Origin: an uncultured Hungatella sp.
GTDB taxonomy: Bacteria > Bacillota > Clostridia > Lachnospirales > Lachnospiraceae
Assembly: GCA_949879795.1 (NCBI GenBank)
Contig: CATLBR010000009.1
Span: forward strand, 45,823 to 109,822
DNA: 64,000 bases
Direction: 5' to 3'
Part shown: in pieces, positions 52,869-64,000 of the stretch
Layout: each line of letters starts with the position of its first letter
Position numbering within the stretch: the stretch's first letter is position 1
Program-made: the position numbers and the translations under genes
Notes under the pieces: model-generated
Databases searched by the model: none
The model's input: only the letters and a program-made list of their open reading frames with translations
What the model was told of the DNA's origin: nothing

Positions 52869-54308
52869 TTAAAACCCCACCACCTGCCCGTCCGCCGCTT
52901 TTATGGACACCAGCAGATTACGCTTTTTGGCATACTCCTGCAGGGGACTGCCATTTTCCGGTTTATCCCAGTTCTGGTCCGTGATCACCACGTCTCCATA
53001 AAAGCTCCACACCGGCTCCAGCCGTCCCCGGTCAGTGGTGTTTCCACGGTCAACCTCATAGGTCAGGAGGTATTCCAGCCTGACCTCCGACACCAGTATA
53101 TAAGTGCGGGGTTCAGGGGATACGGGGAGCAGCGTGGAAGGCCGGATACTTTCGGTCTCCCACTCCAACGTTGCGCTGTCCGCGGCCTGAAGCTGGCTTT
53201 TATCCCCGGCTTTAGCCTTAGTCTTGCCGCTGTCCGCCTCCTGGATCTGGCTCACCTCATCCGCATCAGGAATCCCCGGCTTACTCTGCTCAAAATATGT
53301 CTTGGCGTACTGTTCAAAAATCTCAGTGACGGCTGAGAACGGCAGCAAAAAGCCTTCCTCCTCCTGCTCCTTCACCACGGTTTCCCGGTTGATATCCTTG
53401 AGTTCCACCAGCTCTCCGTCCTGGGCGTAGACGAATTCCACATACTGGCTCAGAGCCGGGGCCATCCCCCAGGCCGCCCCGCCGCCGGAGGGTTCCGGTA
53501 TCCCGTCCACATTCCGGCAGTAGCTCAGTTTTAAACCATACCGGCCGTCCGGGACCCACTTGTAATCCGTGGATCTGGACAAAGCCCGCCACTGGCTGCT
53601 CCTCAGCTCAAAATGCTCCAGGCCCAGGCCGGTCAGGATTTTCTCCGCCTTTTTCTGCATTTCCCCCTCAATCTGTTCCCGCTCCTGCGCGCTGAGTGTC
53701 ATATCCGAGAGGTCCGTGGCATCAAAGCTGTCCCCGCTGCCGTGAGAGAGCTGACGCTGGTTCAGCCAGATGAGCGGCGTCTCGCCGCCGGACCCCTTGC
53801 TGAAGGACACGAAGTACCGGTCGTCCTCTGATGTACAGCTGTTGAGGTCCGTGTTCTTCTCCGGCGGATATTCGTTCTCATTCCACTGGATTCCCTCTGC
53901 CTCGGACACCACTTCCTTAAACCGGGCGAAATCCTCCTCCGTATAGGGCCTTTCCCGCTCCACCCGCAGCACGGGCGCGGCGTACACCTCCGGCACCTTC
54001 ACCGCAGCGTCGGCCTCCAGCCTCATGGTTTCACCGATCAGCTTCATCTCGTAGAGGGCTGGCGCTTCCGTCTGCTCCGACAGGCGTCTCTCCGGTTTCT
54101 CCTCGTCTGCTCCCTTTGTCTCTTCCCCGGCGTCGGATATCTCTTTGCCGCCCCGGGGCTGTTCCGCCTGAGATGTGCGCTCTGCGATCACCGGTTCCCC
54201 CTGCTGCGAAGAACAGCCTGTCTGCGCTGCCAAAATAGCGGCGGCACACAAAGCCAGTCCTGCCGGGAGGCAGAGACGCCTCCAGTTTCCACGATTCTTC
54301 TTGTCCAT
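52869..54308 (-). CDS. Lipoprotein linked to two-component system, function unknown
   Basis: 479 residues from ATG 54308 (MDKKNRGNWRRLCLPAGLAL), which is preceded by AAGGAG. The lipobox is AAQTGCSSQ (Cys near 30), then an acidic/Gln-rich linker and a large extracytoplasmic region with no recognised catalytic motif. It resembles the Clostridia lipoproteins found next to sensor kinases (possibly DUF6034-like). A second low-complexity stretch lies at about 355-395. The GC-rich codon use matches the adjacent kinase and regulator. It has its own candidate operator/promoter and may be the main target or ligand sensor of that system. Confidence 0.8.
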   Translation of the reverse strand: MDKKNRGNWRRLCLPAGLALCAAAILAAQTGCSSQQGEPVIAERTSQAEQPRGGKEISDAGEETKGADEEKPERRLSEQTEAPALYEMKLIGETMRLEADAAVKVPEVYAAPVLRVERERPYTEEDFARFKEVVSEAEGIQWNENEYPPEKNTDLNSCTSEDDRYFVSFSKGSGGETPLIWLNQRQLSHGSGDSFDATDLSDMTLSAQEREQIEGEMQKKAEKILTGLGLEHFELRSSQWRALSRSTDYKWVPDGRYGLKLSYCRNVDGIPEPSGGGAAWGMAPALSQYVEFVYAQDGELVELKDINRETVVKEQEEEGFLLPFSAVTEIFEQYAKTYFEQSKPGIPDADEVSQIQEADSGKTKAKAGDKSQLQAADSATLEWETESIRPSTLLPVSPEPRTYILVSEVRLEYLLTYEVDRGNTTDRGRLEPVWSFYGDVVITDQNWDKPENGSPLQEYAKKRNLLVSIKAADGQVVGF

Positions 54309-54368
54309 CTTGTCATAGCTCCTTTCCCGGGAACCACTTCCTGCCCGGTTCCCTCTCCTGATAACCCC

Positions 54369-54414
54369 ATGATAACAGATATGGTTCCCAAAGAAATCAC
54401 CGGAATGTAAAATA
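54369..54414 (-). promoter_or_regulatory. Candidate regulator box and -10 of the lipoprotein gene
   Basis: ACCGGAATGTAAAATA (54399-54414, plus-strand reading) lies 24 bases upstream of a minus-strand TATCAT (54369-54374). A second TGTAAAA follows 11 bases later (TGTAAAATAGTTGTAAAA), the direct-repeat spacing favoured by OmpR-type regulators. Nearly the same box precedes the regulator gene. Confidence 0.5.
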
Positions 54415-54463
54415 GTTGTAAAAACCGCATCTCTTCTGTTTTCCTGCGCTCCCATTCCCTCTT

Positions 54464-55804
54464 CTAAGGAAATGTTACCGACACCCGCGTCCCCTCCCCC
54501 GCCTTGCTCTCGATCTCCATGGTTCCCCCGTGAAGCTGCACGATGCGCTGTCCCAGAGCCAGCCCCAGGCCGGAGCCGCCCTCGCTGCGGCTGCGGGACT
54601 TATCCGCCATGTAAAATGCCTCCGTCACATGAGGCAGGTCCTTCTCCGGAATTCCGCAGCCCTTGTCCTCCACCGTCACTGTCCGCCCGCGGGCGCTTAC
54701 AAGCACCTCCCTGCCCGGGTCGGAGGCCTTACAGCCGTTGTGAACCAGATTGACAAACAGGCTGCACAGCAGTTCCCGGTCACCCAGAATCCGCATGTCC
54801 TCCGGAAGTTCCACCAGCAGAGTCACGTCCCTGGCGGCAGGCAGCGCCCTCGCCTCCTCCCGCACCTGCTCCAGCAGGTCTCTCAGGGACAGCTCTTCCC
54901 TCCGGATGGCCTCGTTCTCATACATTCCCACCAGCGCCAGCAGCTTGGCGCTCATCTGCTCCATGCGCACGCCTGCGCTGTGGATATTTTGCAGCGCCTG
55001 CTTCTTCTGCCGCTCCGAAAGGCGCACGCTTAACAGGCTTTCCGAGTATCCCATGATGGAGGTCACCGGCGTTTTCATCTCATGGGCCAGAGCGCCTAAG
55101 AGCAGCTCCAGGTTCTCCACCTGCTCCTCCACCTGCTCCGACATACGGTTAAACGCCTCCCCCACCTGGGCAATCTCGTCCCGTCCCCGCACCTTGACCT
55201 TGCTGCCCAGTTCCCCGCAGCTGATGGCGGCGGCCGCCTGGCGCAGCTCCTCCAGGGACTTTAAGGCCCGTCCAAGGCACAGGGCGAAGATCACGGCCGC
55301 TGTCAGGGAAACGCCGCCGAACACGGTCAAATACAGCCCCGCCTGCCGCTCCAACAGCTCCCAGGAATCCGAGATGTCCCGGGCCGCCAGCACCTCGAAG
55401 CCGTCCGGGTATTCCAGGGCCCTGCGCAGCAGCAGGATGTGCTTTTTGCCCAGCTCCTGAACCATGTACTCGCCCTTCAGGCCGCTTAGATTTATGATCT
55501 CGTAATCGGTCTGATTGGCGATGCACACGCCGTCCTTGATCAGCGCGTAACCGCTCTGGTAACAGCGGCCGAACTGATACTTCAAATATGCCTCCCGGGC
55601 GATCTCGCCCATGTTCTCAAAATCCTCCCGGGTTCCCACCTGCCGGAAGGCCCGACCTGCGATCCGCAGCTTTTCCCGCTCGCTCTCCACCTGCACCGAC
55701 AGGCTGTACTCCTTAAGGCGTGCGATGGAAAATGCCGCGCAGGCGCCCATGGAGAACGCCAGGATGAAAAATACCAGCAGCACCAGTTTCGTCTTCAGTT
55801 TCAT
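54464..55804 (-). CDS. Sensor histidine kinase (HAMP, HisKA, HATPase)
   Basis: 446 residues: a membrane helix at about 7-28, an extracytoplasmic sensor (about 30-155), a second helix (LYLTVFGGVSLTAAVIFALC), HAMP, HisKA with phospho-His in LGALAHEMKTPVTSIMGYSE, and an HATPase with N box LFVNLVHNGCKASD, VEDKGCGIPEKDL and GGSGLGLALGQRI. All boxes are intact. It overlaps the regulator gene by four bases. Visibly GC-richer than the genes before 52 kb. Confidence 0.95.
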   Translation of the reverse strand: MKLKTKLVLLVFFILAFSMGACAAFSIARLKEYSLSVQVESEREKLRIAGRAFRQVGTREDFENMGEIAREAYLKYQFGRCYQSGYALIKDGVCIANQTDYEIINLSGLKGEYMVQELGKKHILLLRRALEYPDGFEVLAARDISDSWELLERQAGLYLTVFGGVSLTAAVIFALCLGRALKSLEELRQAAAAISCGELGSKVKVRGRDEIAQVGEAFNRMSEQVEEQVENLELLLGALAHEMKTPVTSIMGYSESLLSVRLSERQKKQALQNIHSAGVRMEQMSAKLLALVGMYENEAIRREELSLRDLLEQVREEARALPAARDVTLLVELPEDMRILGDRELLCSLFVNLVHNGCKASDPGREVLVSARGRTVTVEDKGCGIPEKDLPHVTEAFYMADKSRSRSEGGSGLGLALGQRIVQLHGGTMEIESKAGEGTRVSVTFP

Positions 55805-56475
55805 AGGCCGTCGTCCTCAAACATATATCCCGCCTTGGGGATCGTCTTGATCGCCCCGGCGCTTTTCAGTTTCTTGCGCAGCTTGGCCACATGGACATCC
55901 ACGGTCCTGGTCTCCCCGTAGAAATCGCTGCCCCAGACCAGATCCAGCAGCCGGTCCCTGCCCAGCACCACGTTCCGGTTTTTCAGGAACACGGTCAGCA
56001 GGCCGAACTCCATGGGCTTTAGGTCTACCTCGGCTCCCCCTTCCCAGACGCGGTGCATGTTTAAGTCCACCACCAGATCGCCATAACAGAGCTCCGGTTT
56101 CATTTTCCCGGTCCGCTCCAGCACTTTTTCCATGCGGACCAGCAGCTCCAGCACCTCAAAGGGCTTGACAATATAATCCTCCGCCCCCAGCTTCAGCCCT
56201 CGCACCTTGGACGTCACGTCGGCCTTTGCCGTCAGGTAGATCACCGGAATGTGTTTTCCCTGAAACAGCTCCATCAGCGCAAAGCCGTCCATTCCCGGCA
56301 GCATGATATCCACCAGGGCCAGGTCCGCGGCCTCCTGCCCCTGTTCCCGCAGAAGCCCGGCCGCTTCACTGCCGTCATAAACGGCCCTCGTCTCGTAGCC
56401 TGCTGTTTCCAGATTCATGCAGATCAGATCCGAAATGATCCGCTCGTCCTCCACTACCAGTATCCTGTTCTTCAC
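55801..56475 (-). CDS. OmpR/PhoB-family response regulator
   Basis: 224 residues. The receiver domain has ILVVEDERIISDL, phospho-acceptor Asp in ALVDIMLPGMDG, and Lys in EDYIVKPFE. A winged-helix OmpR domain follows (RDRLLDLVWGSDFYGETRTV). Its cognate kinase is the overlapping gene. A candidate self-operator lies 25 bases from a TAGAAT -10 in its own upstream region. Confidence 0.96.
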   Translation of the reverse strand: MKNRILVVEDERIISDLICMNLETAGYETRAVYDGSEAAGLLREQGQEAADLALVDIMLPGMDGFALMELFQGKHIPVIYLTAKADVTSKVRGLKLGAEDYIVKPFEVLELLVRMEKVLERTGKMKPELCYGDLVVDLNMHRVWEGGAEVDLKPMEFGLLTVFLKNRNVVLGRDRLLDLVWGSDFYGETRTVDVHVAKLRKKLKSAGAIKTIPKAGYMFEDDGL

Positions 56476-57075: not shown

Positions 57076-57759
57076 TCAGGCCTGCTGTCTGTCCCTTTCT
57101 CCCTCTTTAGGTTTATAGTCCTCCAGGCACCCTAAATCAAAATACCCCAGCGCCTCTTCAATCGCGTCAATCTGCTCCTGATTTCTGGAATATTTTTTAA
57201 GCCTCCCTCTCAGGAAATCCGCCTGCTGTTTCAGTGCTTCCACCATCTCTGCCGCTTTTCCTGACCGCTGTGCCTCCAAAAGAAGATCCCCCGGGAGCTT
57301 GCCCGCCAGTTTTCCCATCTTAAGGGGAGTGAACGCAGCCGGAACAGAGTTGGCAGCCCTATCCCCGACAGGTTGGGAACATGTCTCTCCCTGGAAATTG
57401 ACTGCCCGGAAGATGGCCTCCTCAGCGCAGTCCGTGCGCTTCTTTAACAGCGGCATATCCCTTAAGGGAAGGTTGGCCACCAGGGACTGCTTCTTCTCAT
57501 AGCTGAACAGGGATATCAGGTAAATGGACCGGTTAGAAAAGATATTGAGGAACGGGTCCCCCTCCTCATCCGTCATTTTCTTCAGCCGGTCGATCACGGA
57601 CAGCCGGTAATTACTCCTTGGGATGTCCACCACCTGCCCCGCATACCCGGTATCCGGAAACGATTTCTTCAGAAAAGCCAAAGCTGCAAGGTTCCATATC
57701 GTCATAGAAACAAATGGTTCTGTTTCCCGGCCAGAGAAAAATTTCCCCCGGATGCTCAC
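57076..57759 (-). CDS. Hypothetical protein, possibly truncated mobile-element gene
   Basis: 227 residues from a GTG with only a weak ribosome binding site; the frame stays open further upstream, so the true start is unclear. It contains PRSNYRLSVIDRLKKMTDEE and a charged helical C-terminus (QIDAIEEALGYFDLGCLEDY). No domain is recognised. It ends seven bases before the recombinase fragment frame and 42 bases after the sugar-binding lipoprotein gene. It may be a disrupted cargo gene of the lost element. Codon use looks genuinely coding. Confidence 0.5.
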   Translation of the reverse strand: MSIRGKFFSGRETEPFVSMTIWNLAALAFLKKSFPDTGYAGQVVDIPRSNYRLSVIDRLKKMTDEEGDPFLNIFSNRSIYLISLFSYEKKQSLVANLPLRDMPLLKKRTDCAEEAIFRAVNFQGETCSQPVGDRAANSVPAAFTPLKMGKLAGKLPGDLLLEAQRSGKAAEMVEALKQQADFLRGRLKKYSRNQEQIDAIEEALGYFDLGCLEDYKPKEGERDRQQA

Positions 57760-57801: not shown

Positions 57802-59631
57802 TTAATACTTCCGATTCTGAAATTGCGACCGGGGCGTATCTTTTGTGAATACACTTTCGTCTGTAATAATCCGAAGAGGCAATTCCTTTCCCTGCATCAG
57901 ATCGGTGATCGCTTTCATCAACTGAGGCCCCAAAAGTGGATTGCACTCCACCACACAGTTCACCTTTCCGGCCTGAAGTGCCACAAGAGCGTCAGATGTC
58001 CCGTCAACAGACATAATCTTTACATCCATTCCGGGCCGAATCCCCTGCTCTGCCATAATCTCCAGCGTTCCCAGCGCCATATCATCGTTATGCGCAAAAA
58101 TTGCGTCAATGTCCCAATTATGTTCCTCCAAATATTCCTGCATAACCCGGCCTCCTTCCTCTCTGGAAAAATCCCCGCAGGCAGAGTAGGCAATCTCACA
58201 TTCGGGTTCGCCATCGATTACCTCTTCAAACCCGATTTTCCGGCTCTGGGCCGGAGAAGAGCCCTCGGTTCCCGTAAGCTCCAGCACGCGAATCGGCTGT
58301 CCCGGTAATTCATGGAGCAGCCAGCGGGCGCAGCGGCGGCCCTCCTCCTCAAAATCCGCGCCAATGAAAGAAGTGTACATTTCTTCCTCTTCATCCACCA
58401 TACGATCTACCAGGAGAACCGGAATCCCGGCTTTTCTGGCTTCCTCCAGCACGGGCCGCCAGCCCTCCGCTACAACCGGGGAAACCACAATCACATCCAT
58501 ATCCTGGTCAATAAACTTCTGCACCAGCCTGGTCTGCTCCTCCACAAGGGGCTGGGTAAATTCCATGGTCAGATCAATGTCAAAATCCTTAGCCGCCTGA
58601 CGGATGGAGTCGGTACAGGCTGCCCTCCAGTGGCTTTCTTCATCGATCTGGGCGTATCCAACCCGGATTACGGACGGCTTGCCGGTTATCCGGGATTCCT
58701 TCTGATAGTCCGTCACATTGTCCGGCCGGATCCGGTGACTGCGCAGGATGATCTGCTTGGGGATACCACTTACCTGGTTCATAATATCCACCGCGTACCG
58801 AATGGCCTCCGTCCCTCCTGTGGGGCAGGTGACCGTAGCGTCAATCGCTCCCTGCTCCACCAGTTGCAAACCACCGTTTTCTCCGGAAAAGCCGTCCAGT
58901 CCCACAATTCGGATTCCACTGATTCCCAGCTTATCCAGCGCCAGGCGGGCGCCATAGGCCATATAGTCGTTGTGGGCGAAAATTACATCAATGCCCTCCA
59001 GCAACTCAGGACTGGCCAGCAAGGTATCTTCGGCGCAGTCCCGGGTAGCTTCCGGCAGGTCAATGGAGCGGGTAGCTATGCCTGACTCGGATACCGTCTT
59101 TACAAATTCCGCGCTGCGGCTCTCACTGGCAAAAGAATTGTTTTTCATTTCCAGCACAGACGCGCCGGAAATCCCGTCCTCCGCCAACAGTTCCAGCACC
59201 GTTTTCCCTGCCTGACGGCCAATCAGATCATTGTCCGGGCCAATGAACAGCGAGTAGTCATAGCCTTCCATCGCCCGGTCCAGCACGATCACCGGAATCT
59301 TTTCATACGTCCTGCTGATAACCGGGGTCAATGCCTCCACATCGCTGGGGGAGATAATGAGCAGGTCTATGCCGTAACTCATCAGCCGCTCCACATCCGA
59401 TTCCTGTTTCTCGCTGTCACCGGCAGCGTCCGTTATGACCAGACGAACGCCGTCATATTTTTCCGCTTCTGCTTCCAGTTCATCCTTCAGCACAAGCCGC
59501 CACTGCTCCTGGAGGTTGGCCAGCGAGACACCGATTACATACTCTACGCTGGTTTGCCGCACAGAACAGCCGCAGAGAATAGACAATGCCAGACATAAAA
59601 GCCCCATGATTCTTCTCCTGAAACGGCTCAT
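57802..59631 (-). CDS. Lipoprotein with two fused periplasmic sugar-binding domains
   Basis: 609 residues. Signal peptide with lipobox SILCGCSVR (Cys near 22). Domain 1 (about 30-305) is a type I periplasmic-binding fold: VIGVSLANLQEQWRLVLKDE, LLIISPSDVEALTPVI, AHNDYMAYGARLAL. Domain 2 (about 320-595) is a second complete one: RVGYAQIDEESHWRAACTDS, VIVVSPVVAEGWRPVLEEA, AHNDDMALGTLEIM, closest in style to YtfQ galactofuranose binders. Ordinary binding proteins have one domain and about 330 residues. The ATG follows GGGAGG and overlaps the regulator stop, so it belongs to the YesN/YesM operon and may serve as its sugar sensor. Confidence 0.92.
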   Translation of the reverse strand: MSRFRRRIMGLLCLALSILCGCSVRQTSVEYVIGVSLANLQEQWRLVLKDELEAEAEKYDGVRLVITDAAGDSEKQESDVERLMSYGIDLLIISPSDVEALTPVISRTYEKIPVIVLDRAMEGYDYSLFIGPDNDLIGRQAGKTVLELLAEDGISGASVLEMKNNSFASESRSAEFVKTVSESGIATRSIDLPEATRDCAEDTLLASPELLEGIDVIFAHNDYMAYGARLALDKLGISGIRIVGLDGFSGENGGLQLVEQGAIDATVTCPTGGTEAIRYAVDIMNQVSGIPKQIILRSHRIRPDNVTDYQKESRITGKPSVIRVGYAQIDEESHWRAACTDSIRQAAKDFDIDLTMEFTQPLVEEQTRLVQKFIDQDMDVIVVSPVVAEGWRPVLEEARKAGIPVLLVDRMVDEEEEMYTSFIGADFEEEGRRCARWLLHELPGQPIRVLELTGTEGSSPAQSRKIGFEEVIDGEPECEIAYSACGDFSREEGGRVMQEYLEEHNWDIDAIFAHNDDMALGTLEIMAEQGIRPGMDVKIMSVDGTSDALVALQAGKVNCVVECNPLLGPQLMKAITDLMQGKELPLRIITDESVFTKDTPRSQFQNRKY

Positions 59632-60845
59632 CTTGTGCCTCCCTGCTCCAGAATGTTTTTCCGGTATTCTGCCGGAGAGATTCCCAGCGTCCGCTTAAAA
59701 GCGCTGCTGAAATAGTGCTGGGAGCCGTATCCGGTTCTTTGGGCGATCTCATACATTTTCAGATTCTGGTTCTGCAGCAGGCGCATGGCCTCCCGAATCC
59801 GTCTCCCGGTCAGACAGGCGCCGAAGGTATCCCCCGTTTCCCGGTGAAAAACACGGCTGAGATACTGGGGGGTGACATACAGCTGATTCGCCGCTGACTG
59901 TAAAGAAAATTCGCTGTTCCCCCACTGCTTCTCGATCATGCCCAGGACACTGGTCACAAGCTCAGAGTATTTTCGCCGGGCATTGTACTCTGCCAGCGCC
60001 CTCTCCACTACCTCCGGGAATTCCATAAGGTCATTTCCCTGAACACGGATCAGCTCCGCCTTTACCCGAATATATGACTCAATAGGCCCGGTTAGTTTCC
60101 GGGAGAGGTCCTCCCACTCCTGCTGGGACAGCACCCTGGAAATGATGGCCAGGGCATCCCCCTCCGTCCGGAATGTAAGAATGGGACAGGCGGGAGCAAA
60201 GACCTCATGGGCAATGTTGTCACAACTGTATAAAAGAAGATCCATACTCCAGTCGCTTAAGCTGGCCTCCTGAGCCGGATCGCTGCGCAGATGCAGCAGT
60301 GTAACCCAATAAGGGGTGGGGATTTCTATATTCAGATACTGCATCCTGTCCTCAATCTCCACCTGATCCAGATAGCTGCGCAGCCAGCTCCTAAAAAAAT
60401 CGTTGATCAGGGATGAGCGGATTTGCTTCATCTGGCGGGTCACCCAGGTCATATATTTTCTGGACTTTTCCCTGCTCTCCAGCCGCAGAACCGCTTTGTC
60501 CAACATCTGGAAAAACGGCTCCTCCATAATGGGCTTGAGCAGATAGTCGGCAATCCCCATCTGAAGCGCCTTTTGTACAAAGGCAAAATCGTCATAGCCT
60601 GTGATCATGACGATCTCCACATCGGGCAATCGCTTTTTGGCCTCCTGGATAAATTCAAACCCATCCAGAAAAGGCATATTGATATCCACCAGCATCAGGT
60701 CCGGATGGGTCTGATCTGCCAGTTCCAGGGCGATTTCCCCATCCTCCGCCAATGCCACAACCTCCAGCCGTCCATACTGTCCTACCATACTGGCCAGACC
60801 CCGGCGAATGATATCCTCATCATCAGCAATCAAAACTTTATACAT
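59628..60845 (-). CDS. YesN-type response regulator (receiver plus AraC HTH)
   Basis: 405 residues. The receiver domain (MYKVLIADDEDIIRRGLASM, Asp in LMLVDINMPFLDGFEF, Lys in DYLLKPI) is followed by a linker and an AraC-type double HTH at the C-terminus (VTPQYLSRVFHRETGDTFGA, YFSSAFKRTLGISPAEYRK). Such regulators control sugar-uptake genes in Firmicutes. It overlaps the kinase gene by 8 bases and the lipoprotein gene by 4. Confidence 0.95.
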   Translation of the reverse strand: MYKVLIADDEDIIRRGLASMVGQYGRLEVVALAEDGEIALELADQTHPDLMLVDINMPFLDGFEFIQEAKKRLPDVEIVMITGYDDFAFVQKALQMGIADYLLKPIMEEPFFQMLDKAVLRLESREKSRKYMTWVTRQMKQIRSSLINDFFRSWLRSYLDQVEIEDRMQYLNIEIPTPYWVTLLHLRSDPAQEASLSDWSMDLLLYSCDNIAHEVFAPACPILTFRTEGDALAIISRVLSQQEWEDLSRKLTGPIESYIRVKAELIRVQGNDLMEFPEVVERALAEYNARRKYSELVTSVLGMIEKQWGNSEFSLQSAANQLYVTPQYLSRVFHRETGDTFGACLTGRRIREAMRLLQNQNLKMYEIAQRTGYGSQHYFSSAFKRTLGISPAEYRKNILEQGGTR

Positions 60846-62589
60846 GGAAACCCTCCTCCTGAACCGGGAGACGGACTGTTATCTGTGTAAAAATTCCTTC
60901 CTGGCTGTCGATTTGGATGCCATACGGATTACCGTAAGACAGCTCGATCCGCTCCGCAATATAGGACAGCCCAAATCCCCCTGTTTTCTCCTCTTTAGAT
61001 CTGCTTTGACCCTGGCGAAGCTCCTCCAGCCGCTCTGAAGAAATGCCGGCGCCGTCATCCCAGACATGCAAAAGCAGCACTTCCCCCTCCGTCCGGGCCG
61101 TGACACGGATCTGTCCTCCGCTCCGCTTCATTTTCACACCGTGGTAGATGGCATTTTCCACCAAAGGCTGCAGAATCAGCTTGGGAACCACCAGTCCGTC
61201 ATATGCGTCCGGAATCTCAATGGAATAACGCAGGCGGTCCTGATAGCGCACCTTCTGGATATACAGATAGTTTGTGACATGGTTTTTTTCCTCCCGGAGT
61301 GTAATGTAATCCCGGCCGCTTGAGAGCCCCACCCGAAACATATTGGTCAGGGCATCCACCAGACGCACCACGTCCATGGCGTTTTGCGCCCGGGCCATCC
61401 AACTGATGGTATCCAACGTGTTGTACAAAAAGTGGGGCTTGATCTGCTCCTGGAGACTTTTAAGCTGGGCCTCCAGACGAATCTGCTTCTCCTCATAAAG
61501 CTCATGAATCAGTTCTCCAATATGCTCCAGCATATGGTTGAATGAGGTGCCCAGTACACCGATTTCATCCTGGTGCATGGCCTCAAACCGGACAGAGAAG
61601 TCTCCCTCTTCCGCCTTGGCCATCAGGCGGCTCAGCTTAAGAATAGGGCGGGTGACCGTGTCTGATACGCCGATGGAGACCAGAACCACCAGAAGCAGGC
61701 AGACAGCAATACACAGGCTGAGCGCCTGGTAGACCGGGCGGATGCCAGCGGAAAACTCCGTCTCAGGGATCACGCCTACCACCCTCCACCCGGAATAGCC
61801 GCTGTACTGATTGGCAATAAAATAAGCGGTATCATGAATCTTTACCCTGTCTGTATCCACTCCGGCCCGCTGATAACTCTCCTGATCAACGCGGTAGACC
61901 ACATTGCTGGAAGGAGTGTACACCACATCACTGTCGTCCACCACGAAGAGGAACCCTTCCTCCCCGATGGAGACGCGGTTAATCAACTGCTGAATCATGT
62001 TATGGCGGATATCGAACATGACGACTCCCTGCTGACTGCCGTCTGGTCCGTAGGAAAAGGACTTGACAAGGGCAAAAATGGAGTCAGAACTGTCGTTGAG
62101 ATTGCTGAGTACATTTCGCCCCACCACGCTTCCAATGACCCCCAGCTGGCCCTGCCGGGCAATGGCGTACTGCCACCAGTATTCATCGCGGAACCGATCC
62201 CGGGATATCCGGTTCATGCCCGCTCCGAAATACTGCTCGTCCTCATAGGCAATGCAGAATCCGGCAATTTCCGGATAGGCATGCAGAATAGAGTTGGCAA
62301 GATTTTGGAGCATTTCAATCTGCCCGTCATCCATCGGCGCCGTGCTGCCCTTGTCAATTACCAGATCCATCAGCTTTTCCATGGTATTGATATAGATATC
62401 CAGGGATTCACTGGTCTGCCCTACCAGCTGTAAGGTCATTTGTCCGGAGCGGGCGCTGACATCCCGCACCAGTACCGTGGCGATTACCATGGAGAGAACC
62501 AGCAGCGGAATCAACGCCACCAACAGGGTGCTCAACACCAGTTTACTGCGAAATTTCAGATTGCCGAAAACGGCGGCGGCGCGTTTCAT
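60838..62589 (-). CDS. YesM-type sensor histidine kinase
   Basis: 583 residues. Two membrane helices (about 21-43 and 285-305) flank a large extracytoplasmic Cache-like sensor. HAMP follows, then the His_kinase domain with phospho-His in EQIKPHFLYNTLDTISWMA, and an HATPase (LVENAIYHGVKM, GGFGLSYIAERIE). This is the LytS/YesM layout. ATG 62589 is preferred; the track's TTG 18 bases upstream is an alternative. Together with the downstream sugar-binding lipoprotein it probably forms a three-component sugar sensor. Confidence 0.93.
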   Translation of the reverse strand: MKRAAAVFGNLKFRSKLVLSTLLVALIPLLVLSMVIATVLVRDVSARSGQMTLQLVGQTSESLDIYINTMEKLMDLVIDKGSTAPMDDGQIEMLQNLANSILHAYPEIAGFCIAYEDEQYFGAGMNRISRDRFRDEYWWQYAIARQGQLGVIGSVVGRNVLSNLNDSSDSIFALVKSFSYGPDGSQQGVVMFDIRHNMIQQLINRVSIGEEGFLFVVDDSDVVYTPSSNVVYRVDQESYQRAGVDTDRVKIHDTAYFIANQYSGYSGWRVVGVIPETEFSAGIRPVYQALSLCIAVCLLLVVLVSIGVSDTVTRPILKLSRLMAKAEEGDFSVRFEAMHQDEIGVLGTSFNHMLEHIGELIHELYEEKQIRLEAQLKSLQEQIKPHFLYNTLDTISWMARAQNAMDVVRLVDALTNMFRVGLSSGRDYITLREEKNHVTNYLYIQKVRYQDRLRYSIEIPDAYDGLVVPKLILQPLVENAIYHGVKMKRSGGQIRVTARTEGEVLLLHVWDDGAGISSERLEELRQGQSRSKEEKTGGFGLSYIAERIELSYGNPYGIQIDSQEGIFTQITVRLPVQEEGFHV

Positions 62590-62642
62590 TCCCTCACCCT
62601 CTTTCAAACCTTTCTCCCCCCAATTTTACCAGAGACCGGTTT

Positions 62643-62680
62643 CTCCCGCAAGCCGCATTGGCTCCCGCAAGCCGCACTGG
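62643..62680. repeat. Two tandem 19-bp direct repeats
   Basis: CTCCCGCAAGCCGCAYTGG occurs twice head to tail (62643-62661 and 62662-62680) with one mismatch, directly abutting the palindromic element. Confidence 0.8.
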
Positions 62681-62838
62681 AGCGTGTTTGAAAATTCATT
62701 CCCGCCAAGGCACGCCCCACTTTGCGGGAGATTTGGCCCTCATTCGGTCAACGTAGCCCACTACGCCTCCCTCGTTCGGGCCAAATCTCCCACAAACTGT
62801 GACGTACATCTGACGGAAAGCAATTTTCAAACACGCTC
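62680..62838. repeat. 159-bp palindromic MITE-like element
   Basis: Terminal inverted repeats of 17 bp (GAGCGTGTTTGAAAATT / AATTTTCAAACACGCTC), a nested perfect 14-bp pair GGGAGATTTGGCCC / GGGCCAAATCTCCC (62726-62739 and 62778-62791) and a central CGTAG-CCCA-CTACG hairpin. It has no ORF. It may be a non-autonomous mobile element or a dispersed structured repeat. Confidence 0.75.
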
Positions 62839-62875: not shown

Positions 62876-63874
62876 TCAAGTTTTTTTCTTTTCCGCCCGA
62901 ATAGCAATAACCCGCTGAATCAAAATGAAAAAGCACAGGATTGCGGCAATCGTCACCTTTGTCCACCAGGTGTTCAGATTCTGGTAGGTGACGATGGTTT
63001 GGATAATCCCCTGAATCAAAACACCCACCATAGAGCCGATTACCGTCCCCACACCGCCGGTGAGCAGGGTGCCGCCGATCACGGCGGAGGAGATGGCGTC
63101 CAGCTCCAGCCCCATATTCTGCAGGGAGTAGCCCGCCAACGTGTAGAAGCTGAACAGCACACCGCCCAAGGCGGCGCAGAAACCGCTGATGGCGTACACG
63201 CCGATTTTTACGGCGGAGACTGGCAGTCCCATATATTGGGCACTCTGTTCGTTGCTGCCCACCGCATAGACCGCCCGGCCAAAACGGGTGTATTTCAGCA
63301 CATACCAGGCAATGAGAAGAACGGCAAGGGCCACAAACACATAGTAGTACAGCTTTGTGGTCCCTCCGGAAGACATTTTCCAGGAAATTTTTCCCAGAGC
63401 CGCGGCCTTATAGAAACCGTTGTTGATGGGAATGGACACGGTGCTGATGACGGCGCACATACCACGCATCAGGAACTGCCCTGCCAGTGTCACCAGAAAA
63501 GGAGCAATCTGGAACGTATGAACGGCGTAGCCCTGGGCAAAGCCCACAAAGGTTCCAATCAGCAGTACCAGGGGGATCACAACCAAGGCAGACCAGCCTT
63601 TCTCCAGCAGGAACGCGGAAAACACGCCGGTAAAGGCCAAGGTGGAGGCCACCGAAATGTCAATGCCGCCGGTAAGCAGAACAAAGGTCATGCCCACCGC
63701 CACTACGATCAGATAGGCGTTGTCATTGAACAGATTCATAATGGTAGAAATCTGCCCGAAACGGTCATACACGCCAGCCCCCGTCAGATACATGACAATC
63801 AGCATGGTTATGGCAATCAGAAGGGATATGTTGCTGATTTTCATCTTTGTCTTCAAAGGTGTTTTGGTCTTCAT
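62876..63874 (-). CDS. Sugar ABC transporter permease, YjfF type
   Basis: 332-residue membrane protein of the RbsC/YjfF/YtfT family with about nine or ten helices. Signature stretches are VAVGMTFVLLTGGIDISVAS, TRFGRAVYAVGSNEQSAQYM and SSAVIGGTLLTGGVGTVIGS. Similarity of layout to YjfF suggests galactofuranose or a related sugar. AAAGGCGG lies upstream. It follows the preceding permease stop by two bases, so the permeases form one operon whose ATPase and binding protein would lie beyond the window. Confidence 0.92.
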   Translation of the reverse strand: MKTKTPLKTKMKISNISLLIAITMLIVMYLTGAGVYDRFGQISTIMNLFNDNAYLIVVAVGMTFVLLTGGIDISVASTLAFTGVFSAFLLEKGWSALVVIPLVLLIGTFVGFAQGYAVHTFQIAPFLVTLAGQFLMRGMCAVISTVSIPINNGFYKAAALGKISWKMSSGGTTKLYYYVFVALAVLLIAWYVLKYTRFGRAVYAVGSNEQSAQYMGLPVSAVKIGVYAISGFCAALGGVLFSFYTLAGYSLQNMGLELDAISSAVIGGTLLTGGVGTVIGSMVGVLIQGIIQTIVTYQNLNTWWTKVTIAAILCFFILIQRVIAIRAEKKKT

Positions 63875-63876
63875 CG

Positions 63877-64000
63877 CTATGCCACCGCCTTTCTTTTGCC
63901 GAATACAGCCTTCATCCTGGAGATAAAGGCTGGAGACTGGGCCAGGCAGATCACGATTACAATCAGCGCTTTGAACACACGGATAACCTCCGGGGCAACG
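63877..64000 (-). CDS. Sugar ABC transporter permease, YtfT type (C-terminal part, cut by window edge)
   Basis: The minus-strand frame from the window edge to TAG at 63877 reads APEVIRVFKALIVIVICLAQ then SPAFISRMKAVFGKRKAVA. This is the last membrane helix and basic tail of an RbsC/YtfT-type permease. It is absent from the ORF track because its start lies outside. Two bases separate it from the YjfF-type gene. Confidence 0.85.
   Translation of the reverse strand, partial: VAPEVIRVFKALIVIVICLAQSPAFISRMKAVFGKRKAVA

Follow-up and report, generated by a model that had tools for sequence, protein, structure and literature searches.

A two-domain sugar-binding lipoprotein as a candidate sensor for a YesM/YesN system beside a furanose importer in Clostridia

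The locus studied here raises the question of what a single lipoprotein with two sugar-binding domains does when an ABC importer and a two-component system both stand beside it. It lies near one end of the window, by which we mean the whole 64,000-nucleotide stretch of an uncultured Hungatella sp. contig that was analysed. The original prediction had placed a tandem binding protein in translational overlap with a YesN-type regulator and a YesM-type kinase, and the open reading frame coordinates bear this out (Table 1): the lipoprotein and yesN genes overlap by 4 bp (ATGA), yesN and yesM by 8 bp, and yesM starts at an ATG at 62589, with an alternative upstream TTG at 62607. The ytfT and yjfF permease genes lie upstream in the same direction, with yesM, yesN and the lipoprotein gene just downstream of them; ytfT is cut off by the window end, which is also the contig end, with its last 40 codons remaining. 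Neither a separate gafA nor gafB was found in the window's own genome, the assembly of which is 65% complete and the contig of which ends at the importer.

Some neighbouring elements deserve mention in their own right. A 227-aa open reading frame (57076-57759) was considered as a fourth operon member and rejected: it has neither a family match nor a homologue in the fetched loci, and it is dissimilar to the 217-aa frame at the equivalent place in the related locus L010. Between yjfF and yesM lies a near-perfect inverted repeat of 155-160 nt (62680-62838), present as a single copy in the genome assembly, with an RNA fold of -100.9 kcal/mol (z -11); it resembles a miniature mobile element or a strong barrier to transcription, and the same gap in L010 holds a different element, likewise strongly folding. 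Elsewhere on the same strand (52869-56475), an OmpR-type regulator, a HAMP kinase and a DUF6034 protein (possibly a lipoprotein) form a separate two-component set.

Table 1. Features of the locus, in window positions.
Feature	Position	Strand	Details
Tandem sugar-binding lipoprotein	57802-59631	-	609 aa, ATG start, two Peripla_BP_4 domains
Signal peptide with single lipobox L19-C20-G21-C22	59566-59631	-	from the sequence (...SILCGC, Cys22)
Domain A, residues 27-318	58678-59553	-	sensory-type; nearest solved relative BT1754 sensor domain 2x7x; candidate head for docking on the kinase
Domain B, residues 319-609	57805-58677	-	GafA/YtfQ-like, furanose-binding type; proposed sugar-reading head
YesN-type response regulator	59628-60845	-	405 aa; receiver and AraC HTH
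YesM-type histidine kinase	60838-62589	-	583 aa; TM, dCache sensor, HAMP, His_kinase, HATPase_c
YjfF-type permease (gafD), galacto-/arabinofuranose ABC importer	62876-63874	-	NF008630, 358.7 bits (cut-off 363)
YtfT-type permease, C-terminal end	63877-63999	-	40 residues, matched to the end of YtfT in L010

That one polypeptide holds two full binding domains, as had been proposed, was confirmed both by Pfam, with two Peripla_BP_4 stretches (254.6 bits, E 1.4e-75), and by AlphaFold2, which returned two complete and confident folds at residues about 30-310 and 321-609 (mean pLDDT 89.7), with a weakly modelled linker at 311-320. A single lipobox was indeed found, and domain A adjoins the membrane anchor through a tether of about 9 residues; apart from the signal peptide, the 609-aa model contains no transmembrane domain, so the protein is not permease-fused. 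The domains differ as clearly as claimed, being only 20-30% identical, and each carries the ligand-cleft pattern: the pocket positions W-R, D-R, R, N-D and D occur in both and are kept across about 30 homologues, which is far beyond chance. No solved structure covers both heads, the best structure matches spanning one domain each. Whether either domain is degenerate has a different answer for the two. For B, with its pocket intact, conservation and structure rule out a degenerate or chance domain; for A they do so only in part, as its stacking aromatic is missing in the window's clade while its other pocket residues are near-invariant. Among the tandem homologues, seven (L023, L025, L028, L030, L032, L033 and L037) have no evident lipobox and seem to be anchored by an uncleaved N-terminal hydrophobic helix.

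Domain B matches GafA in structure comparison (6hbd, E 1.8e-72, with 42% identity over the matched fold). All three solved GafA proteins are reported to share one identical binding site, in which the sugar is stacked by a Trp and a Phe, and selectivity for furanoses comes from an Asp-Arg pair (PMC10191376). B carries W335, R336, D409, R410, R464, F488, N515, D516, D543 and E562, the residues present in every GafA examined; its sugar-contact positions (W R D R R F N D D E C) are identical to those of GafA proteins, and the whole galacto-/arabinofuranose pocket is intact at all positions checked. While B thus shares fold and pocket residues with GafA/YtfQ proteins (2VK2, 5OCP, 6HBD/6HBM), it is fused behind A in a sensor operon, has lost 28 of 69 GafA-invariant positions (block 358-369 among them) and scores 294.5 bits against the NCBIfam YtfQ equivalog, below the curated cut-off of 510. 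Loss of invariant positions around a preserved pocket is what would be expected if B no longer served the permease. B resembles a reader that has been freed from the permease, and block 358-369 may have been involved in permease docking.

Domain A has as its closest solved relative the sensor domain of BT1754 (2x7x, E 1.4e-33), a fructose sensor of the hybrid two-component type (PMC3404733), with which it shares the W-R, IGxDN and PTxG motifs. In BT1754, however, domain and kinase form one chain, whereas A belongs to a separate membrane-tethered protein. A keeps W44, R45, D118, R119, R172, N221, D222 and D246 nearly invariant, and its sugar-contact positions read W R D R R A N D D T C: the window protein has A195 where A-only relatives and the tandem A domains of Clostridium have Trp, and the pocket Glu of GafA is a Thr (T268 vs E562). 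Throughout the window's clade (26 proteins) the stacking Trp of A is replaced by Ala, Glu, Gly or Gln. Judged from these sequences, A retains most pocket residues and has lost its lower stacking surface in this clade, and the missing aromatic means that A might bind another sugar, another ring form, or only weakly.

Separate histories of the two heads are also apparent in trees of all domains, an analysis that the original prediction had named as a check. A and B fall into separate clades, A with single-domain sensory proteins and BT1754-related Bacteroidota proteins, and B with GafA (a B domain and the GafA encoded in its operon share 38-47% identity); the B domains form one clade (SH-aLRT 92). 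We propose that A comes from kinase-associated binding proteins and B from the importer's GafA/YtfQ. The A, B and kinase trees follow one host pattern, and the A tree requires three changes between tandem and A-only states; a single clade of all tandem A domains was rejected (AU test p 0.0004), with A-only Clostridium proteins falling inside. No B remnant was detected in the intergenic gaps of A-only Clostridium loci. With B a single clade, and given the A tree, the simplest reading is one fusion and then two losses of B in Clostridium, a direction of change that we infer from the sequences. The absence of B from two Clostridium lineages indicates that signalling can, in some systems, do without it.

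The tandem protein is not confined to the window. A genome scan found it complete in 29 other loci (L008-L034, L036 and L037) and apparently broken in L035, and a scan of 392 genomes from the same taxonomic order added about eight loci (one match duplicates L034), which brings the total to about 37 other loci. The protein is made by some gut and soil bacteria, its hosts belonging to the Lachnospiraceae, Oscillospiraceae, Acutalibacteraceae and Clostridiaceae (Clostridia) and to the Spirochaetota. Most often the genes run gafA-gafB(ATPase)-gafC-gafD-yesM-yesN-tandem; some loci have yesN first, and the arrangement in Clostridium is yesN-tandem-gafABCD-yesM. Wherever the flank is long enough, YesM and/or YesN is encoded beside or inside the cluster, and this linkage is kept where the transporter type differs; L029 has kinase and regulator and no importer in the fetched flanks. 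In 22 loci a separate single-domain GafA lies directly before the ATPase gene.

Three sets of loci depart from this picture. In the decayed locus L009 (6136-8004; Colidextribacter sp. OB.20), an in-frame deletion fuses YtfT residues 1-302 to YesN residues 85-405, so that yjfF, yesM and a portion of the receiver are gone while the tandem gene is intact; this may be a natural deletion or an assembly error. In L103-L108, a single-domain GafA-like lipoprotein lies directly before a kinase without dCache, together with YesN and another importer, which on gene order and domain content represents a third sensor architecture. Finally, diverged tandem proteins (L113:8838-10652, L114:8628-10436, L115:7531-9333, L116:8174-10021 and L117:7902-9752) sit beside non-Gaf importers, with A recognisable, the second domain strongly diverged and both pockets altered. 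Independent capture of that second domain from the local importer was unsupported: these domains group together near B and GafA, away from the neighbouring transport proteins, in a placement that long branches make unsure.

If the protein is a sensor, the kinase should be able to receive it. Pfam recognises Response_reg and an AraC-type HTH in YesN, and HAMP, His_kinase and HATPase_c in YesM, with dCache_1 as a weak match. The YesM sensor region nonetheless folds like tandem Cache domains in a modest model (pLDDT 76), and dCache is clear in the kinases of relatives, which supports an extracytoplasmic domain able to receive the lipoprotein; for the kinase domain, the nearest match is Geobacillus GanS (6swj). 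The features expected of an SBP three-component sensor are present, namely an extracytoplasmic dCache region (by weak Pfam match and fold), linkage to a YesM/LytS-type kinase and YesN and, in 22 related loci, a separate transport binding protein. As to which head meets the kinase, A-only proteins are accompanied by kinases of this dCache family; in Clostridium (L039 and L041-L043) the operon is also of the same type, and in Paenibacillus and Lachnospirales the importers are different ones. Where only a B-like protein is present (L103-L108), the YesM-type kinase beside it has 488 aa and no dCache match. When the distances within each head were compared with those within the kinase dCache and corrected for the kinase core, the partial correlation was 0.47 for A vs 0.22 for B, an order kept in 24 of 24 jackknives, although the correlation is modest and shared ancestry is not fully removed. 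These three lines, all comparative, point to A as the kinase partner.

What the sensor reads is suggested by its neighbours. A secreted GH43 (L034 and L121) or a GH127 beta-L-arabinofuranosidase (L025) is encoded directly downstream of the tandem gene, and in the A-only locus L043 ribulokinase (araB) and L-ribulose-5-phosphate 4-epimerase (araD) genes lie just before yesN; the GH43, GH127 and araB/araD genes all support L-arabinose. In L103, with a B-only sensor, aldolase-II, FGGY and fucose-isomerase family proteins adjoin, which we read as araD/araB-like proteins plus an isomerase. galM follows in five loci, and a GH36 alpha-galactosidase is encoded near L024. On this genomic context L-arabinofuranose is the favoured ligand, with galactofuranose or galactose second.

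Taken together, we think that the tandem protein probably belongs to a three-component sensor: A would dock on the YesM dCache, B would read a furanose sugar, and the importer would be switched on. Our functional statements build on sequence, structure prediction and gene order: from the observed domain anatomy, pocket conservation, gene linkage, congruent family trees and the separate transport binding protein of relatives we infer the ligand, the docking face, the signalling direction and the target promoter. Outside the cell, the B head would capture L-arabinofuranose and/or D-galactofuranose, while the A head, beside the lipid anchor, would dock on the dCache domain of YesM. Closure of B, with or without ligand in A, would shift the seating of A on the kinase; YesM would then phosphorylate YesN, which would induce the neighbouring gafABCD (ytfQRT-yjfF) importer.

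An unlikely but coherent alternative is that sugar reading and kinase docking both fall to A, as in single-headed XylFII-type sensors, with B in a secondary role as affinity booster, ligand reservoir or dimer bridge. It would account for A-only systems surviving without B in the same operon type and for the near-invariant residues of the A pocket, but the stacking Trp of A is lost in the window's clade, the furanose pocket of B is complete, and B is retained across Clostridia and Spirochaetota. Less probable again is a two-input gate, whether for two ligands or for two ring forms of one sugar (e.g., arabinopyranose in A and arabinofuranose in B). Both pockets are conserved and differ at the platform residue (A195 or E vs F488) and at T268 vs E562, but the missing aromatic of A may mean that it binds sugar weakly or not at all. 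Least credible is that the tandem protein serves as the importer's binding protein or combines transport with sensing, even though B is GafA-like, the importer genes are adjacent, and double-duty binding proteins have been reported in Vibrio cholerae and Bordetella pertussis (PMC10384115). In 22 loci the position directly by the ATPase gene is held by the separate GafA and not by the tandem protein, which follows the kinase genes, keeps its YesM/YesN linkage through changes of transporter and persists beside unrelated importers with its second domain diverged (L113-L117). A transport role is for these reasons very unlikely and was rejected as a candidate, and comparison supports well the original view of a sensor that does not serve the permease. 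A modular version of the three-component sensor, with a conserved docking head A carrying an exchangeable reader B copied from a transporter binding protein, possibly as a two-input gate, can be put forward only tentatively; were it true, L113-L117 would represent the same adaptor retargeted to new signals.

Single-headed sensors of this kind are already known. In XylFII-LytS-YesN of Clostridium beijerinckii and CuaDSR of Ruminiclostridium cellulolyticum, a second binding protein senses while another takes up the sugar, and a Geobacillus two-binding-protein system is cited alongside them (PMC10384115). These systems resemble the tandem loci in combining a sugar-binding protein beside a two-component system with a separate transport binding protein, but their sensors are described with one binding domain, whereas here two domains of different origin are fused and the kinase is of the dCache type. 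GlnPQ, too, has a tandem of unlike binding domains on a single chain; those domains, however, bind amino acids and are fused to the transporter that they feed (PMC8025302). Our literature searches returned no account of a YesM-type kinase served by a tandem sugar-binding sensor, and it is the two-headed form that is new.

Few systems in which a free sugar-binding protein switches a kinase have been examined, and all of them, as far as we found, have one domain. The natural versions in related bacteria (A alone, A plus B, and B-like alone), in matching operons, make the roles of the domains directly testable. The proposed sensor would also link the sensing of furanoses, sugars from plant arabinans and arabinoxylans, to the control of their importer in gut Clostridia.
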